A stretch of DNA of 64,000 nt from an uncultured Gammaproteobacteria bacterium (GTDB lineage Bacteria; Pseudomonadota; Gammaproteobacteria; Nitrosococcales; Methylophagaceae): contig CAJIZI010000001.1 of NCBI GenBank assembly GCA_905181885.1, positions 372,001 through 436,000 on the forward strand. The letters run 5' to 3'. A model generated the notes under the pieces. That model saw only the letters and a program-made list of their open reading frames with translations. It was not told the DNA's origin and did not search any database. Below are positions 3,977 to 63,357 of this stretch, in pieces. The position numbers and the translations under genes were made by a program. Every line of letters begins with the position of its first letter. Positions within the stretch are counted from its first letter, which is position 1.

Positions 3977-5617
<1,641 letters not shown>

Positions 5618-6047: not shown

Positions 6048-6494
6048 TTATCGTAAATGGCGTTCATCGTCTTCGTTGACGATCTCACCTTCTATAATAT
6101 TAGGCTTTTCATGATGCTCCGACGACCTATACCCAGAAAACTGAGCCTTTTTTATCAGTCGCTTAATTAAAGCTTGCCTCACTAACGGTATTAATAATAA
6201 AAAACCCGCCAGATCTGTAAAGAAACCGGGCGTCAGTAAGAGTCCTCCACTAATCAATAATGCTAATCCCTCTAGCAGGGCTAATGTAGGCAACTGGCCT
6301 TGAGTTATTGATACCTGTGCTCTTTGCATCGTACTCAGACCCTGTATTCTTAGTAAGCCTGCCCCAATAAAAGCTGTAGCCACCACCAAAAAAATTGTCC
6401 AACCCGCACCAAACTCTTCTCCAACCTGAATCAAAAAGTAAATTTCAATCAATGGCACTAATAAAAACAATATAAATAAGGTGCGAAGCATCAT
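6048..6494 (-). CDS. fxsA: FxsA-family inner-membrane protein
   Basis: 148 residues with several hydrophobic helices: residues 1-23 (LRTLFILFLLVPLIEIYFLI), about 28-48, and a third and fourth around 72-105. The family signature PLIEIYFLIQVG near the start and the LLLTPGFFTD segment are clear. FxsA (suppressor of F exclusion of phage T7) is a cytoplasmic-membrane protein of poorly known function. It is commonly the gene upstream of groES-groEL, as here. The first of two adjacent ATG codons was taken. Confidence 0.88.
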   Translation of the reverse strand: MMLRTLFILFLLVPLIEIYFLIQVGEEFGAGWTIFLVVATAFIGAGLLRIQGLSTMQRAQVSITQGQLPTLALLEGLALLISGGLLLTPGFFTDLAGFLLLIPLVRQALIKRLIKKAQFSGYRSSEHHEKPNIIEGEIVNEDDERHLR

Positions 6495-6612
6495 TCTTCC
6501 ATGTTCAACAGTTAGACTACATAATATAAGGTCTACCGATCTAAATTCAAGGGGTTCAGACTCTCAACTCCTGAAGTTGTTTCAAAACAACAAAATGAGA
6601 TATTTGTCGCAA

Positions 6613-6641
6613 TGTCATATAAATGTCACGCTACTTTCACT
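6613..6641 (+). promoter_or_regulatory. PHO box in front of the porin gene
   Basis: Three 7-base half-sites repeat every 11 bases: ATGTCAT, ATGTCAC and CTTTCAC, separated by ATAA and GCTA. The first two almost match the E. coli PHO box (CTGTCAT, 4 bases, CTGTCAC). The block ends 83 bases before the porin start codon, the right distance for a PhoB-activated promoter. Binding by the PhoB encoded at 62566-63258 is inferred. Confidence 0.75.
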
Positions 6642-6724
6642 ATCTTGAAATATTACAACGTTAATCTACGCCCAATCGGACAAATTAGATCCGCTTTTTT
6701 ATTATAATTAATGAGGATAATATT

Positions 6725-7924
6725 TTGAAAATAAAATCTACGTACATACTAATCCTTGGCGCTTTGATGGGTACGGCAGTTTTGCCTGCTCACGCTAGCA
6801 ATGATGCCATGATGGATTTATTAAAAGTGCTTCGTGATAGGGGTACAATAAGTACCCAAGATTATGAGCTGCTTTCAAACGCAGCAAAAGCAGATAAAGA
6901 GGTAGGTGACTCTATTGCAATGACAGTTGATAGCGTTCAAAAGAAATCTTCCTCACTCAAAGCTCTCGAATGGGCAGAACGCATCAAAATTAAAGGTGAC
7001 ATGCGTTTTCGTCATGAGACAGAAAATGTTGATTTGGGTACTTCTGGCGCATCAAGTACAAACGATGAAGACCGTTTACGTATTCGAGCTCGCATCGGAG
7101 CATACGCACAAATCAATAATACAACTAAAGCCGGTATTCGTTTAGTAACAACTTCAGGGAGTGCCACTTCAACAAATCAATCTTTAGAAAATAATTTTGA
7201 AAGTTCTGATGTAGGCATTGACTTAGGTTACATTGATTGGGCTCCCTCAGCACTCGGAGGCAGCACCAATATTATCGTTGGTAAAATGAAAAAGCCTTGG
7301 CAAAGTGTTAATGATGTAATCTGGGATGGAGATACAAACCCTGAAGGTATAGCCATTAAATCTAAATTTAAGTTAGGCGGTATAACACTCCTTCCATCAG
7401 TTGGTTACTTTGTTCTCGATGACAATGGTAATGATTCATTCAGAGAAGATGTCCATGTTAACCATGCACAATTAGCTGCTAATCTAGGTAAAAAAACACA
7501 AATTGGTGCTTCTTTCTACGCATTTGAAAATATCAATAGCGTAAGTGAAGAAGAACGGATGTTAGAAATTTTTGGCCAAACAACCATTCCTGGAATTCCG
7601 GTCACTGTCTTTGCAAGTCATGTCACAAACACTAATGCCAATGCTGCTGGCGATAATGACAATGCATGGTCTCTTGGTGCTAAAGCAAAATTAGGTAAGT
7701 TTAAGCTAGGATATGAATACCGTGATTTAGGTGTAAATGCTGTCAACGACAACTTCGATAACAGTGATTACTTGAGTGACTCAAAAGGAAGTATTTTCAA
7801 AGCCGCATACTCAATAAACAAAAACTTTGCTGCACAAGCAACTTATTACAGCTCTGAATCAAATATTAGAACTTCTAATAAGGAAGTTGATCTTCTCCAC
7901 TTGGACTTAAAAGTAAAATTCTAG
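6725..7924 (+). CDS. Outer-membrane porin, probably phosphate-starvation induced
   Basis: 399 residues. A signal peptide (about residues 1-24, ending PAHA) precedes a helical segment MMDLLKVLRDRGTISTQDYELL, typical of OprP/OprO-like putative porins. After that come alternating beta strands (IKIKGDMRFRHE, RLRIRARIG and others) ending in the aromatic-style terminus DLLHLDLKVKF, as for a beta-barrel. The start codon is TTG at 6725 with AGGA about 9 bases upstream; no better in-frame start precedes the signal peptide. The PHO box at 6613-6641 suggests a role in phosphate uptake across the outer membrane. A strong hairpin follows. Confidence 0.82.
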   Translation: MKIKSTYILILGALMGTAVLPAHASNDAMMDLLKVLRDRGTISTQDYELLSNAAKADKEVGDSIAMTVDSVQKKSSSLKALEWAERIKIKGDMRFRHETENVDLGTSGASSTNDEDRLRIRARIGAYAQINNTTKAGIRLVTTSGSATSTNQSLENNFESSDVGIDLGYIDWAPSALGGSTNIIVGKMKKPWQSVNDVIWDGDTNPEGIAIKSKFKLGGITLLPSVGYFVLDDNGNDSFREDVHVNHAQLAANLGKKTQIGASFYAFENINSVSEEERMLEIFGQTTIPGIPVTVFASHVTNTNANAAGDNDNAWSLGAKAKLGKFKLGYEYRDLGVNAVNDNFDNSDYLSDSKGSIFKAAYSINKNFAAQATYYSSESNIRTSNKEVDLLHLDLKVKF

Positions 7925-8108: not shown

Positions 8109-8783
8109 GTGAATAAACTGATTAATCACATATTGCTTGCCCTTCTCATCCTGAGCCCATTGATAAGTTCAGCTGAAACCACTCGTTATGTCTCTGATCA
8201 ACTTGAAATCACTATGCGTGATGGACAGGGTGTAAAGTTTGCGATCAAAAGGGTCCTGACAAGTGGTGACCGTTTAGAGCTCATTGAAGCTGATTCCTCA
8301 GGTTATTCGAAAGTCCGCACCATAGAGGGTGTTGAAGGCTGGGTACTAACTCGATACCTAATGAATGCACCAAGCGTTCGTAATCTCGTTGCAGACAGTG
8401 CTCAAAAAGTTGCAAACCTAGAATTAGAGTTAGCTGAAACCAAGGAAGAACTTCGAAAACTTTCTACAAAAGTCACTACGTCTGATAGCAAAAGTATGAC
8501 ATTGAAAGAAACATCACAGCGCCTCAAAAAAGAACTCGATTCCCTGCAAATAACGGCATCAAGCTCCATCGCCTTAAGTAATGAAAATATTCAATTAAAA
8601 GAGAAAATTCAACAAATTGACATCCGTATACAAGCACTTGTATTAGAAAATACTGCGATAAAAAATAGCGACTCTCAAAGCTGGTTCTTAACTGGTGTGG
8701 CGGTTCTCCTTGGCGGTATTATTCTTGGCTTAATTCTTCCTCGCCTTCGGCTTCAAAGAAAAAATAGCTGGGGAAATATTTAA
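8109..8783 (+). CDS. Membrane-anchored bacterial SH3-domain protein (TIGR04211/YgiM type)
   Basis: 224 residues. A signal peptide (about 1-22, ending SSAE) leads into a bacterial SH3-like domain (about 25-88: YVSDQLEITMRDG, GDRLELIEADSSGYSKVRT, GWVLTRYLMN). Then follow a long coiled coil (about 95-190), one transmembrane helix (about 195-215, FLTGVAVLLGGIILGLILP) and a short basic tail. This order is the YgiM/TIGR04211 architecture, so it is probably anchored in the inner membrane with the SH3 domain facing peptidoglycan. The start is GTG with only a weak AAGAAG upstream. It is a single gene with its own terminator. Confidence 0.85.
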   Translation: MNKLINHILLALLILSPLISSAETTRYVSDQLEITMRDGQGVKFAIKRVLTSGDRLELIEADSSGYSKVRTIEGVEGWVLTRYLMNAPSVRNLVADSAQKVANLELELAETKEELRKLSTKVTTSDSKSMTLKETSQRLKKELDSLQITASSSIALSNENIQLKEKIQQIDIRIQALVLENTAIKNSDSQSWFLTGVAVLLGGIILGLILPRLRLQRKNSWGNI

Positions 8784-8953: not shown

Positions 8954-9304
8954 GTGAATATTCAAGCAAGTGACTTTTATTCCGCACTCTCGCACCCAAT
9001 GCGGCTCAGAGCTGTCGTTCTAATCATTCAAATGAACGAGCTTTGTGTTTGTGAACTTACCCACACACTAGGTCAAGCTCAGCCTGTTATTTCACGCCAT
9101 CTCAGTCAACTCAAAGAAACTAAAATATTGCTAGCACGTAAGCAGGGGCAATGGGTTTACTACCGTATTAATGATGCACTCCCAAAATGGGCACTTGATG
9201 TCATCCGAGCAACTCTTAACGGCGTCCTTGATTTACCCCCTTATCAAAATGATAGGCAGGCACTTTACACTATGTCTAACCGGCCCAATCAAGCCTGCTG
9301 CTAA
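8954..9304 (+). CDS. arsR: ArsR-family arsenic-responsive repressor
   Basis: 116 residues, a winged-helix repressor. The As(III)-sensing pair is visible as Cys31 and Cys33 in ELCVCEL at the start of the third helix. The recognition helix follows (QAQPVISRHLSQLKE), then the wing KQGQWVYYRIND. The protein ends in Cys-Cys (115-116), which may add a thiolate ligand. The start is GTG; the nearby ATG codons are out of frame. It is the first gene of an arsR-gapdh-arsJ operon and presumably represses it until arsenite is present. Confidence 0.93.
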   Translation: MNIQASDFYSALSHPMRLRAVVLIIQMNELCVCELTHTLGQAQPVISRHLSQLKETKILLARKQGQWVYYRINDALPKWALDVIRATLNGVLDLPPYQNDRQALYTMSNRPNQACC

Positions 9305-9324: not shown

Positions 9325-10338
9325 ATGACGATACGCGTTGCAATTAACGGCTTTGGCCGTATTGGAAAACTCGCATTACGCGCTGGCTGGGGTAACGAAG
9401 AATTAGAATTTATTCATATCAATGAAACTGAAGGTGATGCACATTGCCATGCCCACTTGATTCAATTTGATTCAATTCATGGACGTTGGGGTACTCATAA
9501 AACCATCTCCAGTACAGATAACAGTATCACTATCGATAATCAAACCATTTCGTATAGCCAATCGGCAAATCCTATGGGAGTCGGTTGGGACAAACTCAAT
9601 ATAGACTTAATGATCGAGTGCAGTGGCCAATTTAAAACACAAAAGCAACTGCAGACTTATTTCGATTGTGGTATCAAAAAGATATTGATCTCAGCGCCAG
9701 CACCAGAGCCTGCATTAAATGTCGTCTATGGCGTCAACCATCATCTCTATGACCCTGCACGCCACCAAATTGTCACCGCAGCCTCTTGTACCACTAATTG
9801 CTTAGCACCATTAGTAAAAATAATGCATGAAAATATTGGTATCAAACATGGCTCAATAACCACTATTCATAATATAACCAATAGCCAAACTATTGCAGAC
9901 AAGGGTCATAAAGATCTACGCCGTGCCCGTGCAAGCGGTCAATCTTTAATTCCAACTACTACCAACTCAGCCAAAGCAATCTCAATAATTTTTCCCGAAT
10001 TAACAGGTAAACTCAATGGCCATGCAGTACGAGTGCCTCTACTCAATGGCTCCATTACCGACTTTGTCTTCGAAGCTAAACGTTCGACGGATGTACAAGA
10101 GATTAACCAACTTTTTAGAACTGCTTCCGAATCAACTTTAGTCGATATTCTTGGCTATGAAACACTCCCACTTGTCTCTGCCGATTACACTAATGACCCA
10201 AGATCTGCCATTGTTGATGCCCCATCCACCATGGTGATTAACAACACCCAAGTTAAACTACTTGCTTGGTATGACAATGAGTGGGGGTATGTAAACAGAA
10301 TGATCGATATCGCTAAGATGATAGCTAAATCTTTATAA
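9325..10338 (+). CDS. Arsenate-associated glyceraldehyde-3-phosphate dehydrogenase
   Basis: 337 residues. The Rossmann motif GFGRIG (residues 9-14) and the active-site ASCTTNC with catalytic Cys155 are intact, as are the C-terminal WYDNEWGY residues. In ars operons this GAPDH uses arsenate in place of phosphate to make 1-arseno-3-phosphoglycerate, which ArsJ exports. That role is inferred from position between arsR (20 bases upstream) and arsJ (7 bases downstream). A separate glycolytic GAPDH is expected elsewhere. Confidence 0.92.
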
Positions 10339-10345
10339 CAAAAAA

Positions 10346-11557
10346 ATGAGTCCGCTTCGAAATTACTTAGTTATTTCTGGTACATACTGGGCCTTCACAT
10401 TAACGGATGGCGCTCTTCGTATGTTGGTAGTCCTCTATTTCTACCAGCTGGGTTATTCTCCATTATCTATTGCAAGCTTATTTTTATTCTATGAGCTCTT
10501 TGGCATAGTCACTAACCTTCTCGGCGGCTTAGCAGCAACAAGATTCGGACTCAAGTCCACCTTATTAGTCGGGCTGACGTTGCAAATATTTGCTTTACTG
10601 ATGCTAACTGTCCCTACTGAAAACCTCACAGTCCTTTATGTTATGGGTGCACAAGCATTGTCCGGTATCGCCAAAGATCTCAATAAAATGAGTGCAAAAT
10701 CCAGTATTAAACAACTTTTCCCAGTGAATGCTAAAGATAACAAGCTATTCAAGTGGGTCGCCATACTCACCGGCTCTAAAAATATTTTAAAAGGTGTTGG
10801 CTTCTTTTTAGGTGGTTTTTTATTAGCTCATTATGGCTTTCAAACCGCCTTATTCATTCTGGCTTTCAGCTTATTAATTACACTTCTACTAGCGATCCCT
10901 TTACTAGTCTCTAGCCAAACCAAAATTAACCACAAAGCCAAGTTCTCTCAATTATTTTCCAACGATCCTGCCGTAAATTGGTTATCTGCTGCTCGCTTTT
11001 TCTTATTTGGTTCAAGAGACGTTTGGTTTGTCGTAGCCCTACCTGTTTATTTAGTTAGCCAGCTCAATTGGCAGTTTGATCAAGTAGGCAGTTTTTTTGC
11101 CTTCTGGCTTGCTGGGTACGGATTGATGCAAGCCTATGCACCCTGGCTATTACAATACTGTAAACAAACCCGACACTCGACAGATCGCAAAATAACGCAA
11201 CAACTCGCAATAATCTTAGCCCTTATTCCTGCTGGTATGGCTTTAGGCTTGTATTTAAGTTTAGGTACTAATTGGATAATTATAAATGGCTTGGCTCTCT
11301 ATGGTATTATTTTTGCCCTCAATTCAGCTGTCCATTCCTACCTGATTATCGAGTGGTCTGATCACCAAAAAATATCAATGAATGTCGGCTTTTATTACAT
11401 GGCTAATGCAGGGGGGCGTCTAACTGGAACGATCTTGTCAGGGTTAGTTTATCAATACTATGACTTAATTGGCTGCTTGATCATCTCTAGCTTTTTTGTT
11501 GTCTTTACCGTAATCCTTTCGCGACACTTGCCAGCATCCAATTCAATTTCACCTTGA
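10346..11557 (+). CDS. arsJ: ArsJ, major-facilitator exporter of 1-arseno-3-phosphoglycerate
   Basis: 403 residues with about 11-12 hydrophobic helices. The N-terminal segment NYLVISGTYWAFTLTDGALRMLVVLYFYQLGYSP is typical of ArsJ. The pump removes the unstable arseno-phosphoglycerate, which breaks down to arsenate outside the cell. It follows gapdh by 7 bases, completing a known two-gene organoarsenical detoxification module. It ends 15 bases from the convergent ilvD with no terminator visible between. Confidence 0.92.
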   Translation: MSPLRNYLVISGTYWAFTLTDGALRMLVVLYFYQLGYSPLSIASLFLFYELFGIVTNLLGGLAATRFGLKSTLLVGLTLQIFALLMLTVPTENLTVLYVMGAQALSGIAKDLNKMSAKSSIKQLFPVNAKDNKLFKWVAILTGSKNILKGVGFFLGGFLLAHYGFQTALFILAFSLLITLLLAIPLLVSSQTKINHKAKFSQLFSNDPAVNWLSAARFFLFGSRDVWFVVALPVYLVSQLNWQFDQVGSFFAFWLAGYGLMQAYAPWLLQYCKQTRHSTDRKITQQLAIILALIPAGMALGLYLSLGTNWIIINGLALYGIIFALNSAVHSYLIIEWSDHQKISMNVGFYYMANAGGRLTGTILSGLVYQYYDLIGCLIISSFFVVFTVILSRHLPASNSISP

Positions 11558-57705: not shown

Positions 57706-59979
57706 CTAAAGGCTACTGTACTTAACACGTAAACGCTGACGAACAACTTCAGCAATGGTATTAAAGATAAATGTCGCCATAAACAACACTAAAGCTGCTA
57801 AAAATAAGACACGGTAATGTGTACTGGCGACTTCAGCTTCCGGCATTTCCACTGCAATATTGGCAGATAAAGCCCTGAAACCCTCAAAAATATTGAAGTC
57901 CATAATTGGCGTATTGCCCGTAGCCATCAATACAATCATCGTTTCACCTACGGCCCGACCTAAGCCAATCATCACGGCGGAAAATATACCTGGGCTTGCC
58001 GTTAAAAGCACAACCCGGGTTAGCGTTTGCCACGGTGTTGCTCCAAGGGCTAATGAGCCGATCGTCAGGTGCTTAGGCACACCAAAAATTGCATCTTCAG
58101 TAATAGAGAAAATCGTAGGGATCACTGCAAACCCCATAACTAAGCCAACCACCAGGGAGTTACGTTGATCAAAGCCCACACCTATATCATCAAGCCATCT
58201 TGGCATATCGCCATTAAATAACCATAACTCGAGTGTCGGACTCATCATCATCGACACCACGCCAACCAAAATAACCACTGGCACCAGAATTGCCGCCTCA
58301 CAACCCTCTGGGATAGATTCCCTAAAGCTTGAAGGCAGTTTAGTCCATAAATAAGCCGTCAATATGGTCATGACTGGCAACATAATAAGGATCGAAAACA
58401 CACCCGGTAAATTTCCTTCCACAATTGGAGCCAGCCATAAACCTGCCAAGAATCCGAGAATAACTGTCGGTAAAGCTTCCATGATTTCAATCGTCGGCTT
58501 TATCAACCTTCGCATTTTTGGTGACATGAAATAGGCGGTATATATCGCCCCCATAATTGCCAATGGCACAGCAACCATCATCGCGTAAAATGCAGCTTTA
58601 ATCGTTCCAAAAGTCAATGGACTTAAACTAAATTTCGGCTCAAAATCATTACTCGCCGAAGATGACTGCCAAATATATTCTGGCTTATCTCGACTTTCAT
58701 ACCAAACCTCTTGCCATAAAGAGTGCCAGGACACCTCAGGGTGCTCATTATCCAAAGTTATTAATTTGGCATGACCATCTATTGATAGCGCCAAAACACT
58801 ATTCGCCCTAGGAGAGACTGCAATTAAGGTCTCCACATCATCAACTACCTTTTCAACCAACAAGGTTCGTTCTGCTGTTGTATGGTAAATCCCCAGATGG
58901 CCTGAGGCATCCAAGGCTAAAAAACCTTTCCGCGAGTGTTCAGGTGCCAACTCAATAATTGCTGACTCCTGCTCCTTAAAGTTTCTAACATTATGCAAAG
59001 TGTAATTATTATGAAGATCACGTAGCGGAAACCATTGATCAATTTGACCATCACTACGGCCAACCAGAATAGAGATCCCACCCGTTAAAAATGATAATGC
59101 GGTGACATTAACTCCAGTTGGTACAGCCTTAACCTTCTGTATCAGATTTGGTTCTGAAATATCACTGATATCATAAAAAAAGATAAAGCCGCTATCATCA
59201 ACTAGATATAATTCTCGCTGCTCAATATCCATTTGAATATGCGTGATTTTTTCGTCACTCGGCAAACTAATTTCAGCCCGTTTTTCCTCAAGGGTGAACG
59301 CATCTTCATCCATGAAGTTTTCTTGGCGAATTAAACCAAGTAAAACCAAAGTATTAATATCTGTTAAACCAACAACGGTTGTTTGTTCCTCACTGCTTTG
59401 CACTGTTAATGAAGTCAAGGAACGCCCCCTGTCATCAACCTTCAATAGAGCCTTCCCAATGGGGTAAGTGATTACTGGAGTGATATAGCGCTTATCATCA
59501 GGGTAACTAATTTTATATTCACGTTTAAAGATCAAGGCACGGCCATCATCAAAGCCATAAGCAAGCACACCGGTCGTCGGGGCACCGTGACTAAAACTAA
59601 CAATGTTGCTATTTAACGGTAAAGGTAGCGCGGGTGTTGATATGGTATGGCCCGTATCTGCTACAAAAAACCGTATAAGCCCATCCATATTGGCAGACAA
59701 TGCGACATCGTTATATTCGTTCAATGCAATATGGACAGCCTTATTACTTTCCAACGTATATTCAGAGACGGTATCCATCTCCGCGCCGTCAAATAAAGGT
59801 AATACCACGTGTAATAGATAGAAGAAAATTAAGACAATGGCAAAAATAACTGATAGACCGCCAAAAGCAACCCCATACCGCGCGGCCCTGTCCTTAAACT
59901 CACGCCAGGCTCGACGACGTATCGCTATTGGCGAGTTTGCGGCAGGTAATACACTACCAATAGATGAATGCTCAACCAT
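57706..59979 (-). CDS. pstC: Phosphate ABC transporter permease PstC, long form
   Basis: 757 residues, more than twice E. coli PstC. A first membrane helix (about 38-62, FGGLSVIFAIVLIFFYLLHVVLP) is followed by a periplasmic insert of about 400 residues that looks like a beta-propeller (repeated FDDGRALIF, VGRSDGQIDQWFP and ALSIDGHAKLITL blocks). The permease helices follow, with the EAA loop [20 protein letters not shown]. It forms the membrane channel with PstA. Such inserts occur in many marine gammaproteobacteria. It is adjacent to pstA. Confidence 0.95.
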   Translation of the reverse strand: MVEHSSIGSVLPAANSPIAIRRRAWREFKDRAARYGVAFGGLSVIFAIVLIFFYLLHVVLPLFDGAEMDTVSEYTLESNKAVHIALNEYNDVALSANMDGLIRFFVADTGHTISTPALPLPLNSNIVSFSHGAPTTGVLAYGFDDGRALIFKREYKISYPDDKRYITPVITYPIGKALLKVDDRGRSLTSLTVQSSEEQTTVVGLTDINTLVLLGLIRQENFMDEDAFTLEEKRAEISLPSDEKITHIQMDIEQRELYLVDDSGFIFFYDISDISEPNLIQKVKAVPTGVNVTALSFLTGGISILVGRSDGQIDQWFPLRDLHNNYTLHNVRNFKEQESAIIELAPEHSRKGFLALDASGHLGIYHTTAERTLLVEKVVDDVETLIAVSPRANSVLALSIDGHAKLITLDNEHPEVSWHSLWQEVWYESRDKPEYIWQSSSASNDFEPKFSLSPLTFGTIKAAFYAMMVAVPLAIMGAIYTAYFMSPKMRRLIKPTIEIMEALPTVILGFLAGLWLAPIVEGNLPGVFSILIMLPVMTILTAYLWTKLPSSFRESIPEGCEAAILVPVVILVGVVSMMMSPTLELWLFNGDMPRWLDDIGVGFDQRNSLVVGLVMGFAVIPTIFSITEDAIFGVPKHLTIGSLALGATPWQTLTRVVLLTASPGIFSAVMIGLGRAVGETMIVLMATGNTPIMDFNIFEGFRALSANIAVEMPEAEVASTHYRVLFLAALVLFMATFIFNTIAEVVRQRLRVKYSSL

Positions 59980-60177: not shown

Positions 60178-61128
60178 TTACTGTATCTTAGCTAATTCTT
60201 TTTCTACTACTGTCAAGGGCAGTGGTACATAGCCATCCTTAACCACTACTCTCTGTCCTACTTTCGACAACACCATTTTAATAAACTCACGGTCAAGCGG
60301 TGCCATAGGCTTGTTTGGAGCTTTATTCACATAAACGTAGAGGTATCGAGATAGCGGGTAAGAACCATTGGCTGCATTTTTTTTAGTTGCTGCGATCATT
60401 TTACCATCCCGCTTTTTACTTAAAGCTAATGCTTTAACACCAGATGTTTTGTAGCCAATACCAGAATAGCCAATACCATTTAATGACTTCGTCACGCCTT
60501 GAACAACAGAAGCAGAACCCGGCTGCTCATTTACTTGATCTTTATAGTCACCTTTACATAAAGCTTTCTTCTTAAAGTACCCATATGTACCTGATACCGA
60601 ATTTCGGCCGTACACTTGAATGCTGCCTAAGTTGCTACCCAATTGTGACCAGCTAACGATATCTTCTGCGTAACCACATTTACGTGTTGCAGAGAAAATG
60701 GCATCAACTTCTGGGATGCTCAACCCTTCAAGTTTGTTATCTTTATGGACATAAACTGCTAGTGCATCAATTGCGACGCGAATAGGCGTTGCTTTATATC
60801 CGTACTTCTCTTCAAAAGCTGCATTTTCTTTATCTTTCATCTTACGGCTCATAGGGCCAAAACTTGAAGTCCCTTCAGTCAATGCCGGTGGTGCGGTAGA
60901 AGAACCTGCTGCTTGAATTTGAATAGTTACATTTGGGTATTCGCGTTTAAATTCTTCTGCCCAAAGTGTCATCAAATTAGCCAGCGTATCTGAGCCTACA
61001 CTTGATATTTTGCCAGAAATACCGCTTGATTTCTGATAACTAGGTAGTGTATCTACATCGGCCATTGCTAATGTAGAAAAAATCATTAGGACCACAGCCC
61101 CAAGTGTATTCATTTTTTTCACAAACAT
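60178..61128 (-). CDS. pstS: Phosphate-binding periplasmic protein PstS
   Basis: 316 residues. A signal peptide (about 1-23, ending AMA) and phosphate-binding loops [34 protein letters not shown] and [17 protein letters not shown]. It captures phosphate for PstCAB. It is first in the operon, behind a tandem PHO box, with GGGAG before the ATG. The order pstS-pstC-pstA-pstB-phoU is standard. Confidence 0.97.
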
Positions 61129-61194: not shown

Positions 61195-61234
61195 GTGACA
61201 ATGATATGTAAAAACTATGACAGTTCTGTTACAA
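61195..61234 (-). promoter_or_regulatory. Tandem PHO boxes and promoter of pstS
   Basis: Reading the minus strand, four half-sites recur every 11 bases: TTGTAAC, CTGTCAT, TTTACAT and TTGTCAC, each followed by four bases. This is two PHO boxes in tandem. A TAGATA (61186-61181) lies 8 bases after the last half-site as a candidate -10. PhoB from the neighbouring phoBR genes should activate pst here. Confidence 0.82.
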
Positions 61235-61268: not shown

Positions 61269-62552
61269 CTAAGATTTAGCCAATACATTTTCGAGTGGGA
61301 AATGACAAGAAAAGGTTGATCCATGGCCCGGATTACTGCTAATTCTTAGCATGGCGCCATGTCGCTGAAGCACATGTTTAACGATTGCAAGTCCTAAACC
61401 GGTCCCACCATCCTCAAGAGCGCGTCCATTATCTACACGATAAAAACGTTCAGTTAACCGGTCTAAGTGATGCTCTGGAATACCGTTGCCCTCATCTTTT
61501 ACCGAAATAACACCTTCTTGCTCATTGACCCCCCACGTAACGGTGATCCGGCAGGCTGGCGGCGTATACCTCACGGCATTAAAGATAATATTAGATAGTA
61601 CGCTGCGAAGCTCACCCATATCAGCCAATAGTGAATGGTCCACATCTAAGTTCAACTCAACCATATGCTTGTCATATTGAGGTAGTTTCATCGCTTCCGT
61701 GATGACTTCTTGTAAGATAGTATTTATATCTATTGAGACTAGGTTTAATGGCTTTTCACCGGACTCTAAGTGAGACAAAGCCAATAGCTCTTGCAGCATG
61801 CCGCTCATCCGAGCAGCTTGTTGGCGCATTGCGGGTAATGCCTTTTTCCATTGCTCTGGGGGTGTTTTACTACTAAATATTTCCAAGTAACCACTTATCA
61901 CTGTCAGCGGTGTCCTTAACTCATGGGAGACATTTGCCACAAAGTCGCGCCTCATTTGTTGCAATTTAAGTATCGGCGTCATATCTCGAGCGATTAACAT
62001 CCGAGCGTTACCCATATAACTGACGATCTTTATTTCTAATTTAATCTCTTTATTCACTGGTGACGTTAATGATACCGCTTTCCCTTTCATCGCCGGATCA
62101 ATAATCAACTTCTGAAAAACTGGATCCCTAATTAAGTTATTTACCCTAATACTCTTATCTCTAGGGCACGTTATGCCTAACAAAGCTTCAGCTGAAGCAT
62201 TAACCCACATCACCTCACCAAACGAACCCAATACAACAACCGCATCAGGTAGCGCAGCTGTTGCAGATTGAAACCGTTTCAAATAACCCGTTAACTTCTT
62301 CTTTCTCGACTTGTTCTGCCGGCGCATTTGCTCTAGATCTCTACACACATCATTGACAACCCCCTCTGCTTCTGGTGGCTGGTTTTTCTTTGGGTTTCTC
62401 AACCACGCTGACAATTTATACCAAGAATGTTGAATCCATACCGCATAAAGAAGGGTGGCAATAAACATAAACGTCATCATTTGACCAAATAACAGCCCAA
62501 TAAAGCCCGATAAACTGACTACTGTTAATAACCTCCAATAATCCCAAGGCAT
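61269..62552 (-). CDS. phoR: Phosphate regulon sensor kinase PhoR
   Basis: 427 residues. An N-terminal membrane hairpin (about 7-45), a PAS domain (about 90-190, TAALPDAVVVLGSFGEVMWVNASAEALLG), the phosphoacceptor His in DFVANVSHELRTPLTV, N-box NIIFNAVRYTPP, G1 DEGNGIP and G2 GGTGLGLAIVKHVL. It phosphorylates PhoB under phosphate limitation. It follows phoB by 13 bases in one operon. Confidence 0.96.
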   Translation of the reverse strand: MPWDYWRLLTVVSLSGFIGLLFGQMMTFMFIATLLYAVWIQHSWYKLSAWLRNPKKNQPPEAEGVVNDVCRDLEQMRRQNKSRKKKLTGYLKRFQSATAALPDAVVVLGSFGEVMWVNASAEALLGITCPRDKSIRVNNLIRDPVFQKLIIDPAMKGKAVSLTSPVNKEIKLEIKIVSYMGNARMLIARDMTPILKLQQMRRDFVANVSHELRTPLTVISGYLEIFSSKTPPEQWKKALPAMRQQAARMSGMLQELLALSHLESGEKPLNLVSIDINTILQEVITEAMKLPQYDKHMVELNLDVDHSLLADMGELRSVLSNIIFNAVRYTPPACRITVTWGVNEQEGVISVKDEGNGIPEHHLDRLTERFYRVDNGRALEDGGTGLGLAIVKHVLQRHGAMLRISSNPGHGSTFSCHFPLENVLAKS

Positions 62553-62565
62553 TGATTAAACCTGC

Positions 62566-63258
62566 TTAATGTTTAGCAAAGCGATACCCTACACTACGTA
62601 CTGTTTCAATTAGAATGCCATTTCCACTAAGTCCTAATACTTTTCGTAGGCGAAGGACATGCACATCCACTGTTCGTTCTTCAATATAAACCATATCTCC
62701 CCAAACCTGATCTATCAGCTGACCTCTGCTGTATGCACGATCGGGGTTTTTCATAAAGAAATGCAATAAACGAAACTCTGTCGGACCCAAATTAACTTCC
62801 TCACCGTCTATTAAAAGGCGGTGGCTTTTTATGTCTATTTCCAAAGGACCATGCTTTATATTTGTGCTTGTAGGTTCATCAAGACCCTTGCATCGTCTCA
62901 ATAATGCCTTTATCCGTGCAATCAATTCTGGTGGTGAAAAAGGCTTATTTACATAATCATCTGCCCCAACGCTTAATCCTTTCACCATATCCCCGCTTTC
63001 TCCTTTGGCAGTCAGCATGATCACTGGAATGTCAGCAAAAGTGTTTATAGCACGTAAGCGCCTAATAAACTCAACACCATCAATACCTGGCAACATCCAG
63101 TCTAAAAGAATAATAGCTGGTCGTCTCTCTTTCAATGATACTAACCCTAATTCAGCATCAGCGACTCCTTCACACTCAAACCCAGAGTGGCGGAGTGAAA
63201 AACACAACATCTCCCTGATGGCCTTATCATCTTCTATTACTAAAACCAGCTCAGCCAT
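62566..63258 (-). CDS. phoB: Phosphate regulon response regulator PhoB
   Basis: 230 residues. A receiver (acidic pair in VIEDDKAIR, phospho-Asp in LLDWMLPGIDG, Thr/Lys in MLTAKGE and NKPFSPPEL) and an OmpR-type winged helix with LGPTEFRLLHFFMKNPDRAYSR and RTVDVHVLRLRKVL. It binds PHO boxes such as those upstream of pstS and the porin. I see no clear PHO box before phoB itself in the 99-base gap to recQ. Confidence 0.97.
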   Translation of the reverse strand: MAELVLVIEDDKAIREMLCFSLRHSGFECEGVADAELGLVSLKERRPAIILLDWMLPGIDGVEFIRRLRAINTFADIPVIMLTAKGESGDMVKGLSVGADDYVNKPFSPPELIARIKALLRRCKGLDEPTSTNIKHGPLEIDIKSHRLLIDGEEVNLGPTEFRLLHFFMKNPDRAYSRGQLIDQVWGDMVYIEERTVDVHVLRLRKVLGLSGNGILIETVRSVGYRFAKH

Positions 63259-63357
63259 GAAAAATCACCCCAAAATACAATTAATTAGAAGCATACAGTT
63301 CAAATATTACAAACTTATAACATAATCAACAAATTACCGTATTTAGTCACAACTCAC

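Follow-up and report, generated by a model that had tools for sequence, protein, structure and literature searches.

A predicted phosphate-starvation porin whose barrel is exchanged between two families behind a conserved PhoB box

The porin locus

The window, by which we mean the whole stretch of 64,000 nucleotides that was analysed, contains a porin gene whose frame begins with a TTG codon at 6725 and ends with the stop codon at 7924 (399 amino acids). The features of this locus and of the phosphate genes near the other end of the window are the following:

3977..5614, minus strand: groEL (Cpn60), profile match, conserved neighbourhood
6048..6494, minus strand: fxsA (PF04186), left neighbour of the porin, conserved in short- and long-form genomes (defined below)
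6612..6651, plus strand: PhoB box of four half-sites with an 11-bp period, ATGTCAT (6612-6618), ATGTCAC (6623-6629), CTTTCAC (6634-6640) and TTGAAAT (6645-6651), supported by sequence, trained matrix and conservation
6662..6667, plus strand: -10-like TAATCT, 10 bp past the last half-site, presumed promoter element
6713..6717, plus strand: putative ribosome-binding site GAGGA, assigned by position
6725..6904, plus strand: porin head with TTG start, signal peptide and N-terminal helices (codons 1-60), common to the relatives' OprP-type porins
6905..7924, plus strand: linker and Porin_5 (PF16930) beta-barrel, the exchanged part, with 16 strands from residue 86 in the structure model
8109..8783, plus strand: TIGR04211 SH3-domain protein, right neighbour, profile match, conserved neighbourhood
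8954..9304, plus strand: ArsR/SmtB-type regulator (NF033788, 81.6 bits, cut-off 55)
9325..10338, plus strand: ArsJ-associated GAPDH (NF033735, 534.9 bits, cut-off 450)
10346..11557, plus strand: ArsJ, arsenate-resistance transporter (NF033734, 544.1 bits, cut-off 400)
60178..61128, minus strand: pstS (TIGR02136, 276 bits, cut-off 206.6)
61195..61234, minus strand: PhoB box before pstS, found by trained matrix and genome pattern scan
61269..62552, minus strand: phoR (TIGR02966, 385.5 bits, cut-off 334.2)
62566..63258, minus strand: phoB (TIGR02154, 294.1 bits, just below the cut-off of 296.2, but the best of 95 families)

About 52 kb separate the end of the porin gene from pstS, and the porin is indeed far from the pst locus, as a sequence-only reading of this DNA had remarked.

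The PhoB box and its conservation

The same reading had described three half-sites, ATGTCAT, ATGTCAC and CTTTCAC, and had let the box begin at 6613. The three motifs and their 11-bp period stand, but the true start is 6612 and the box has a fourth half-site, TTGAAAT. In order, the half-sites agree with the CTGTCAT consensus at 6, 5, 5 and 4 of 7 positions, while those of the pstS box (61234-61195: TTGTAAC, CTGTCAT, TTTACAT, TTGTCAC) agree at 4, 7, 4 and 5; each of the three half-sites noted earlier thus outscores two of the four before pstS, as had been claimed, and the totals of the two boxes are equal (20 of 28 consensus matches each). The porin promoter has the characters of the Pho regulon: tandem 11-bp repeats of CTGTCAT type, and a box about 10 bp before the -10. 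A TA-rich element lies at the equivalent distance after the box in the 25 homologous promoters that bear one, where box and gap align.

One could argue that such a box is a random match, and a plain scan of the window gives this notion some room: an 18-bp consensus allowing at most 3 mismatches has 9 matches in the 64 kb where 5.4 are expected, a number reached by 10 of 100 shuffles and thus not significant. A matrix of three half-sites was trained on 25 pstS promoters of relatives. These remained from the 30 pstS loci listed once the locus of the window itself had been removed, together with three distant loci and another that contains N, so that the window's genome had no part in the training. 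By this matrix the porin site is the best of the 64-kb window (22.6) and the pstS site the second (22.3), whereas no position scored above 19.3 when the window was shuffled 200 times (first-order), and scores of at least 16 appeared at 0.025 per window; ten other promoters of the window score below 0. A degenerate three-half-site pattern matched only the porin and pstS promoters in the 1,504,707-bp genome (reversed control: 0 and 1). Since this pattern was drawn up with knowledge of both sites, it counts as support only and the independently trained matrix is the fair test. The genome-wide search for further boxes that had been proposed was thus carried out, but it added none to these two promoters. 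The trained matrix, the shuffles and the conservation described below all speak against a random match, which we regard as extremely improbable.

Other candidates were rejected. The other PF07396 gene of the genome (C1:273341-274255), considered as the real starvation porin, is without a PhoB box (matrix score -15.4). A candidate box at 753-781 before a gene with a tRNA-editing domain (three-half-site matrix score 16.5) is not kept in the relatives G012 or G003 and is probably a chance match.

A protein search matched the porin in 48 of 75 related genomes, the window's own counted, and the 300 bases before each start (124 in one case) were read for 30 homologous loci among the matches listed. 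The box, defined by at least 17 of 28 consensus matches, is kept before 25 of these 30 homologues, 108-137 bases ahead of the start, and 24 of the 25 box-bearing promoters score at least 16.3 with the matrix (L018 of G025: 7.7). In the other five (G007 L023, G001 L024, G018 L027, G006 L032, G008 L038) the box is lost or decayed, with 13-14 of 28 consensus matches and matrix scores below -6. As the box is lost in 5 of 30 promoters and the protein has no match in 27 of 75 genomes, neither the control nor the gene is universal. The proposal that PhoB controls the porin nevertheless gains from the conservation of the box before 25 of the 30 homologues and from the phoB- and phoR-like genes in the window, and the prediction that the porin is switched by phosphate starvation via PhoB is well supported.

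The loci that have no box carry OprP-type genes and retain the leader and the start. A TTG occupies the codon aligned with the window start in 30 of 30 homologues, after a GAGG- or AAGG-type site; it is an unusually invariant weak start, preceded by a conserved leader end GAGGATA..CCC (6713-6727; 20 leaders aligned). The same 20 leaders yielded a hairpin of 4 pairs across the ribosome-binding site with no compensatory change, and the notion of a structured leader was dropped. Before phoB, a weak box-like stretch at 63284-63323 (ATGTTAT, TTGTAAT; full-matrix score -5.3) makes weak phoB autoregulation possible.

Two barrel families at one locus

In what follows, the short form is the porin with a Porin_5 barrel, the long form is the porin with a Porin_O_P barrel, and G000 is the window's genome. 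Full-length matches to the window porin occur in G000 itself and in G003, G010, G013 and G017 (67-78% identical), while in the remaining matched genomes chiefly the first 60-100 residues are alike. An alignment of 28 complete proteins, from which two truncated by contig ends were excluded, illustrates this division: across the 115 pairs of a short with a long form, identity averages 72.9% in residues 1-60 (61.7-91.7%) and 17.7% in residues 91-399 (13.0-21.5%). Pfam finds Porin_5 in all three short forms tested and Porin_O_P in all seven long forms tested, and the long form of G012 matches the solved OprP 2o4v at 2.7e-8.

The window porin matches Porin_5 (PF16930) with 116.6 bits (cut-off 22) in two stretches that cover part of the 535-position profile. 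It gives no match to Porin_O_P (PF07396) in Pfam at E 0.001, and among PDB sequences no OprP at E 1 and no solved relative. By sequence the window barrel is therefore not of the OprP/OprO-like class to which it had been assigned, and that label is wrong for the window's genome. The relatives have Porin_O_P at the same place, so the label fits most relatives examined, but not the window barrel. What links the gene to OprP/OprO is the PhoB-type box and the fact that relatives have a Porin_O_P barrel at this locus, behind the same promoter, TTG start and head; what separates it is the barrel, about 18% identical to their OprP-type barrels. With Porin_5 the likeness lies in the profile match and in ten relatives outside the genus (E-values down to 1.7e-69), and the differences lie in a head and promoter from an OprP-type locus and in the length, 399 residues against 535 profile positions.

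Both forms share one neighbourhood. The porin follows fxsA in 21 long-form genomes and in four of the five short-form genomes, and groEL lies on the far side of fxsA wherever the contig is long enough; in the fifth short-form genome, G010, the contig starts 124 bases ahead of the porin. Where contigs extend, the SH3-domain gene comes after the porin directly or past EAL-domain and ArsC-like genes. G010 has the EAL-domain gene (L079:1447-3246), of which only a short remnant lies between porin and SH3 gene in G003 (L077 7302-7751). The long form of G016, G025 and G027 lies immediately downstream of phoU of the pst operon, as does a homologue in G026 whose barrel is cut off by the contig end, and no porin lies between fxsA and the SH3 gene in G005, G016 and G025. 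In G027 (L083 6878-17939) fxsA and the porin are separated by the entire pstSCAB-phoU operon, an arrangement that unites two loci about 52 kb apart in the window.

Exchange of the barrel in place

The nearest relative examined, G022, is 85-87% identical to the window's genome in DNA over 10.5 kb located 16-27 kb from the porin (six other relatives: 68-72% in the longest stretch of each), and it has the OprP form at the porin locus. DNA similarity between the two runs through fxsA, promoter and head up to +175 (codon ~59), is absent in the barrel and returns 91 bases beyond the stop (94 in G022). A second sister pair is formed by G003 (Porin_5) and G012 (OprP), whose RpoB is 97.4% identical over the 622 residues available for G003: their heads are 92% and their barrels 23% identical, the break falls at +184, and similarity returns 112 bases beyond the G012 stop and 1,312 beyond that of G003, in which other genes intervene. 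The barrels of G012 and of G002, a genome from another branch, share 89% identity, although the two genomes are much less alike in the head (75%), fxsA (68%), the SH3 protein (67%) and GAPDH (78%); groEL is 91% identical.

An alternative reading is that short and long forms are two ancient paralogues, lost differentially in each species, with no exchange at one locus. In favour of paralogues, both forms exist in one family, G017 carries a head on each of two contigs, and a second, weaker homologue is present in both G026 and G027. However, both forms occupy the same fxsA-porin-SH3 interval behind a homologous promoter and head, the heads agree at 72.9% where the barrels agree at 17.7%, DNA identity breaks sharply at +175 and +184, and G012 shares its barrel with G002 at 89% with flanks of 67-78% (groEL 91%). 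Thus we consider the paralogue reading improbable and return to exchange at one locus.

The distribution of the barrels was compared with a tree of six flanking proteins of one region from 31 genomes, with many gaps; its genes adjoin the porin and may recombine themselves. On this flank tree a clade of the four short-form genomes other than G017 is rejected (AU p 4.7e-07, log-likelihood 369 lower), and at least four changes of barrel type are required, or three w/o G017. The unlinked RpoB backs the pairing of G003 with G012, and the distant 10.5 kb that of G000 with G022. G017 was treated separately because two of its contigs carry fxsA plus head (82% alike); its position differs between two trees, and it is either a mixed assembly or a duplication. 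As the Porin_5 carriers are rejected as one clade, the barrel was exchanged more than once. Barrel types do not cluster on the flank tree beyond chance, with 112 of 500 shuffles requiring no more changes; this is in line with repeated exchange, but also with a small sample.

The relatives are mostly incomplete, multi-contig draft assemblies, and the two versions of fxsA plus head in G017 are a reminder that an exchange could be an artefact of metagenome assembly or binning. Against this, the window porin lies inside a 918,716-base contig, the short form with its neighbours was found again in four other assemblies with differing contig names, and G012 has its long form, together with the flanks on either side, within a contig of 65,889 bases. 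An artefact is in our view very improbable.

By the sequences compared, then, a fixed PhoB switch stands before a channel domain that has been exchanged in place, on more than one occasion, between two porin families. This in-place swap is what is new here, and it is because of it that the family label was wrong for the window's genome. We found no description of a barrel exchange behind a PhoB switch in open-licence PMC full texts, the literature covered by our search (subscription papers were outside its scope). The simplest route would be homologous recombination between related species, which could use the shared left flank or head on one side and the right flank on the other.

Phosphate linkage and channel function

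A search with the barrel alone gave matches in 45 of 369 genomes of the class. When the ten best matches outside the genus were placed in their surroundings, nine (G405, G211, G322, G245, G105, G227, G335, G339, G427) lay among phoB, phoR, pst or phoU genes, and the tenth, G178, did not. The same nine have a pair of half-sites within 300 bases before the start at a shuffle P of at most 0.010, against 0.11 for G178 (mononucleotide shuffles with a minimum possible P of 0.003; start codons selected manually); with three half-sites, G335 reaches only P 0.05. Therefore, phosphate control and linkage accompany this barrel type in other bacterial families. Of the phosphate-uptake role that had been suggested for the porin, the association stands, in that homologues lie beside pst and pho genes, and the protein is likely a phosphate (and arsenate) channel.

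A structure model built from six sequences (pLDDT 68, pTM 0.67) has N-terminal helices and 16 barrel strands. A fold search with it returned solved porins as the best matches, with OmpM1 first (Z 25.6, 276 residues, 20% identity); OprP is not among the best 50 matches listed in either of two fold searches, which is no evidence for differing folds. Arg 94, 96, 117, 119, 121, 123 and 139 are invariant in six homologues, and four of them alternate on one strand. The presumed inner face, chosen by hydrophobicity in the model, has 19 basic and 9 acidic residues, while the whole barrel is net negative (-6 to -17 across the five short forms). The inner-face charge and the arginines of the barrel suit an anion channel and are no proof of a preference for phosphate.

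PhoE is a porin of the Pho regulon under a PhoB-type box, of a family other than that of the window porin, and it is usually described as a PhoB-induced general, not phosphate-specific, porin. One could argue that the window porin is of this kind and makes the starved cell more permeable to anions overall: Porin_5 lacks an assigned substrate, general porins and OmpM1 come out as the best matches of the model among solved structures, and the arginine-rich strands could serve any anion. The results fit a phosphate-specific channel as well as a general one; the tight pst linkage in nine of the ten distant genomes and the alternation with the OprP family lean to phosphate, and a general porin, while to be taken seriously, seems to us not the probable answer. 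KpnO is reported to be a porin under a PhoB-type box, too (PMC3405095), and belongs to another porin family; the likeness is one of control.

Arsenate genes downstream of the porin

Phosphate routes admit arsenate, too. The GAPDH-ArsJ pair lies 1.4-3.6 kb downstream of the porin with scores above the NCBIfam cut-offs, as a neighbour and separate from the porin itself. In some relatives ArsC-like and EAL-domain proteins stand between porin and SH3 gene (EAL tested for G010); the ArsC-like protein of G003 reaches 141.4 bits, below the cut-off of 174.3. G022 is missing the arsR-GAPDH-arsJ trio at the porin locus and has an ilvD-type gene after the SH3 gene. The pair is present downstream in all five short-form genomes versus 11 of the 18 long-form loci with sufficient contig reach, one of these 11 showing GAPDH only, up to the contig end; the numbers are too few for a claim on arsenic neighbours and barrel type.

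Together, GAPDH and ArsJ are known to confer arsenate resistance (Chen et al. 2016, cited in PMC6620896; PMC9601151), and linkage of pst with ars genes in arsenic islands has been described (PMC3834237). A starvation-opened porin beside arsenate detoxification makes sense as a pairing of adjacent genes.

Discussion

We consider it quite probable that the locus encodes a PhoB-induced porin passing phosphate and arsenate, in which the slot is inherited and the barrel is repeatedly exchanged. When phosphate is scarce, phosphorylated PhoB would turn on the outer-membrane porin at 6725-7924: bound to the four tandem half-sites at 6612-6651, it would recruit polymerase to the -10 at 6662 and substitute for a -35. 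The channel, presumably a trimer, would admit phosphate, and unavoidably arsenate too, into the periplasm for PstS. The slot, consisting of the PhoB promoter, leader, TTG start, signal peptide and N-terminal helices, would be inherited with the groEL-fxsA neighbourhood, and the barrel behind it would be exchangeable by recombination between related species: one crossover would fall within the head or ahead of it, the other beyond the stop codon. In this way Porin_O_P and Porin_5 barrels could have taken each other's place, in one direction or the other, on more than one occasion.

More tentatively, the locus may be seen as a porin slot, in which a PhoB switch and a helical head take an OprP- or Porin_5-type plug that selection changes, be it for phage escape or for tuning between phosphate and arsenate; we hold this to be rather doubtful. 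If it were true, phages that use the starvation-induced porin, or arsenate entry beside arsR-GAPDH-arsJ, would drive the changes of plug.

Pfam describes Porin_5 only as 'putative porin'. The present data offer a likely function for a subgroup of it, namely a PhoB-controlled, pst-linked channel able to replace OprP. Close relatives that combine one type of promoter and head with barrels of different families amount to a natural experiment on the requirements of a phosphate porin, and they also bear on the question whether porin turnover in phosphate-poor settings is driven by phages or by arsenate.

Two further observations concern the phosphate genes. In G050, from another family of the order, two tandem OprP-type genes (L094 7125-10172) are divergent from phoB-phoR-pstS. 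In the window, the first pst permease protein (57706-59979) has 757 amino acids, where PstC is usually much shorter, and it shows weak beta-propeller-like matches N-terminal to the permease domain.
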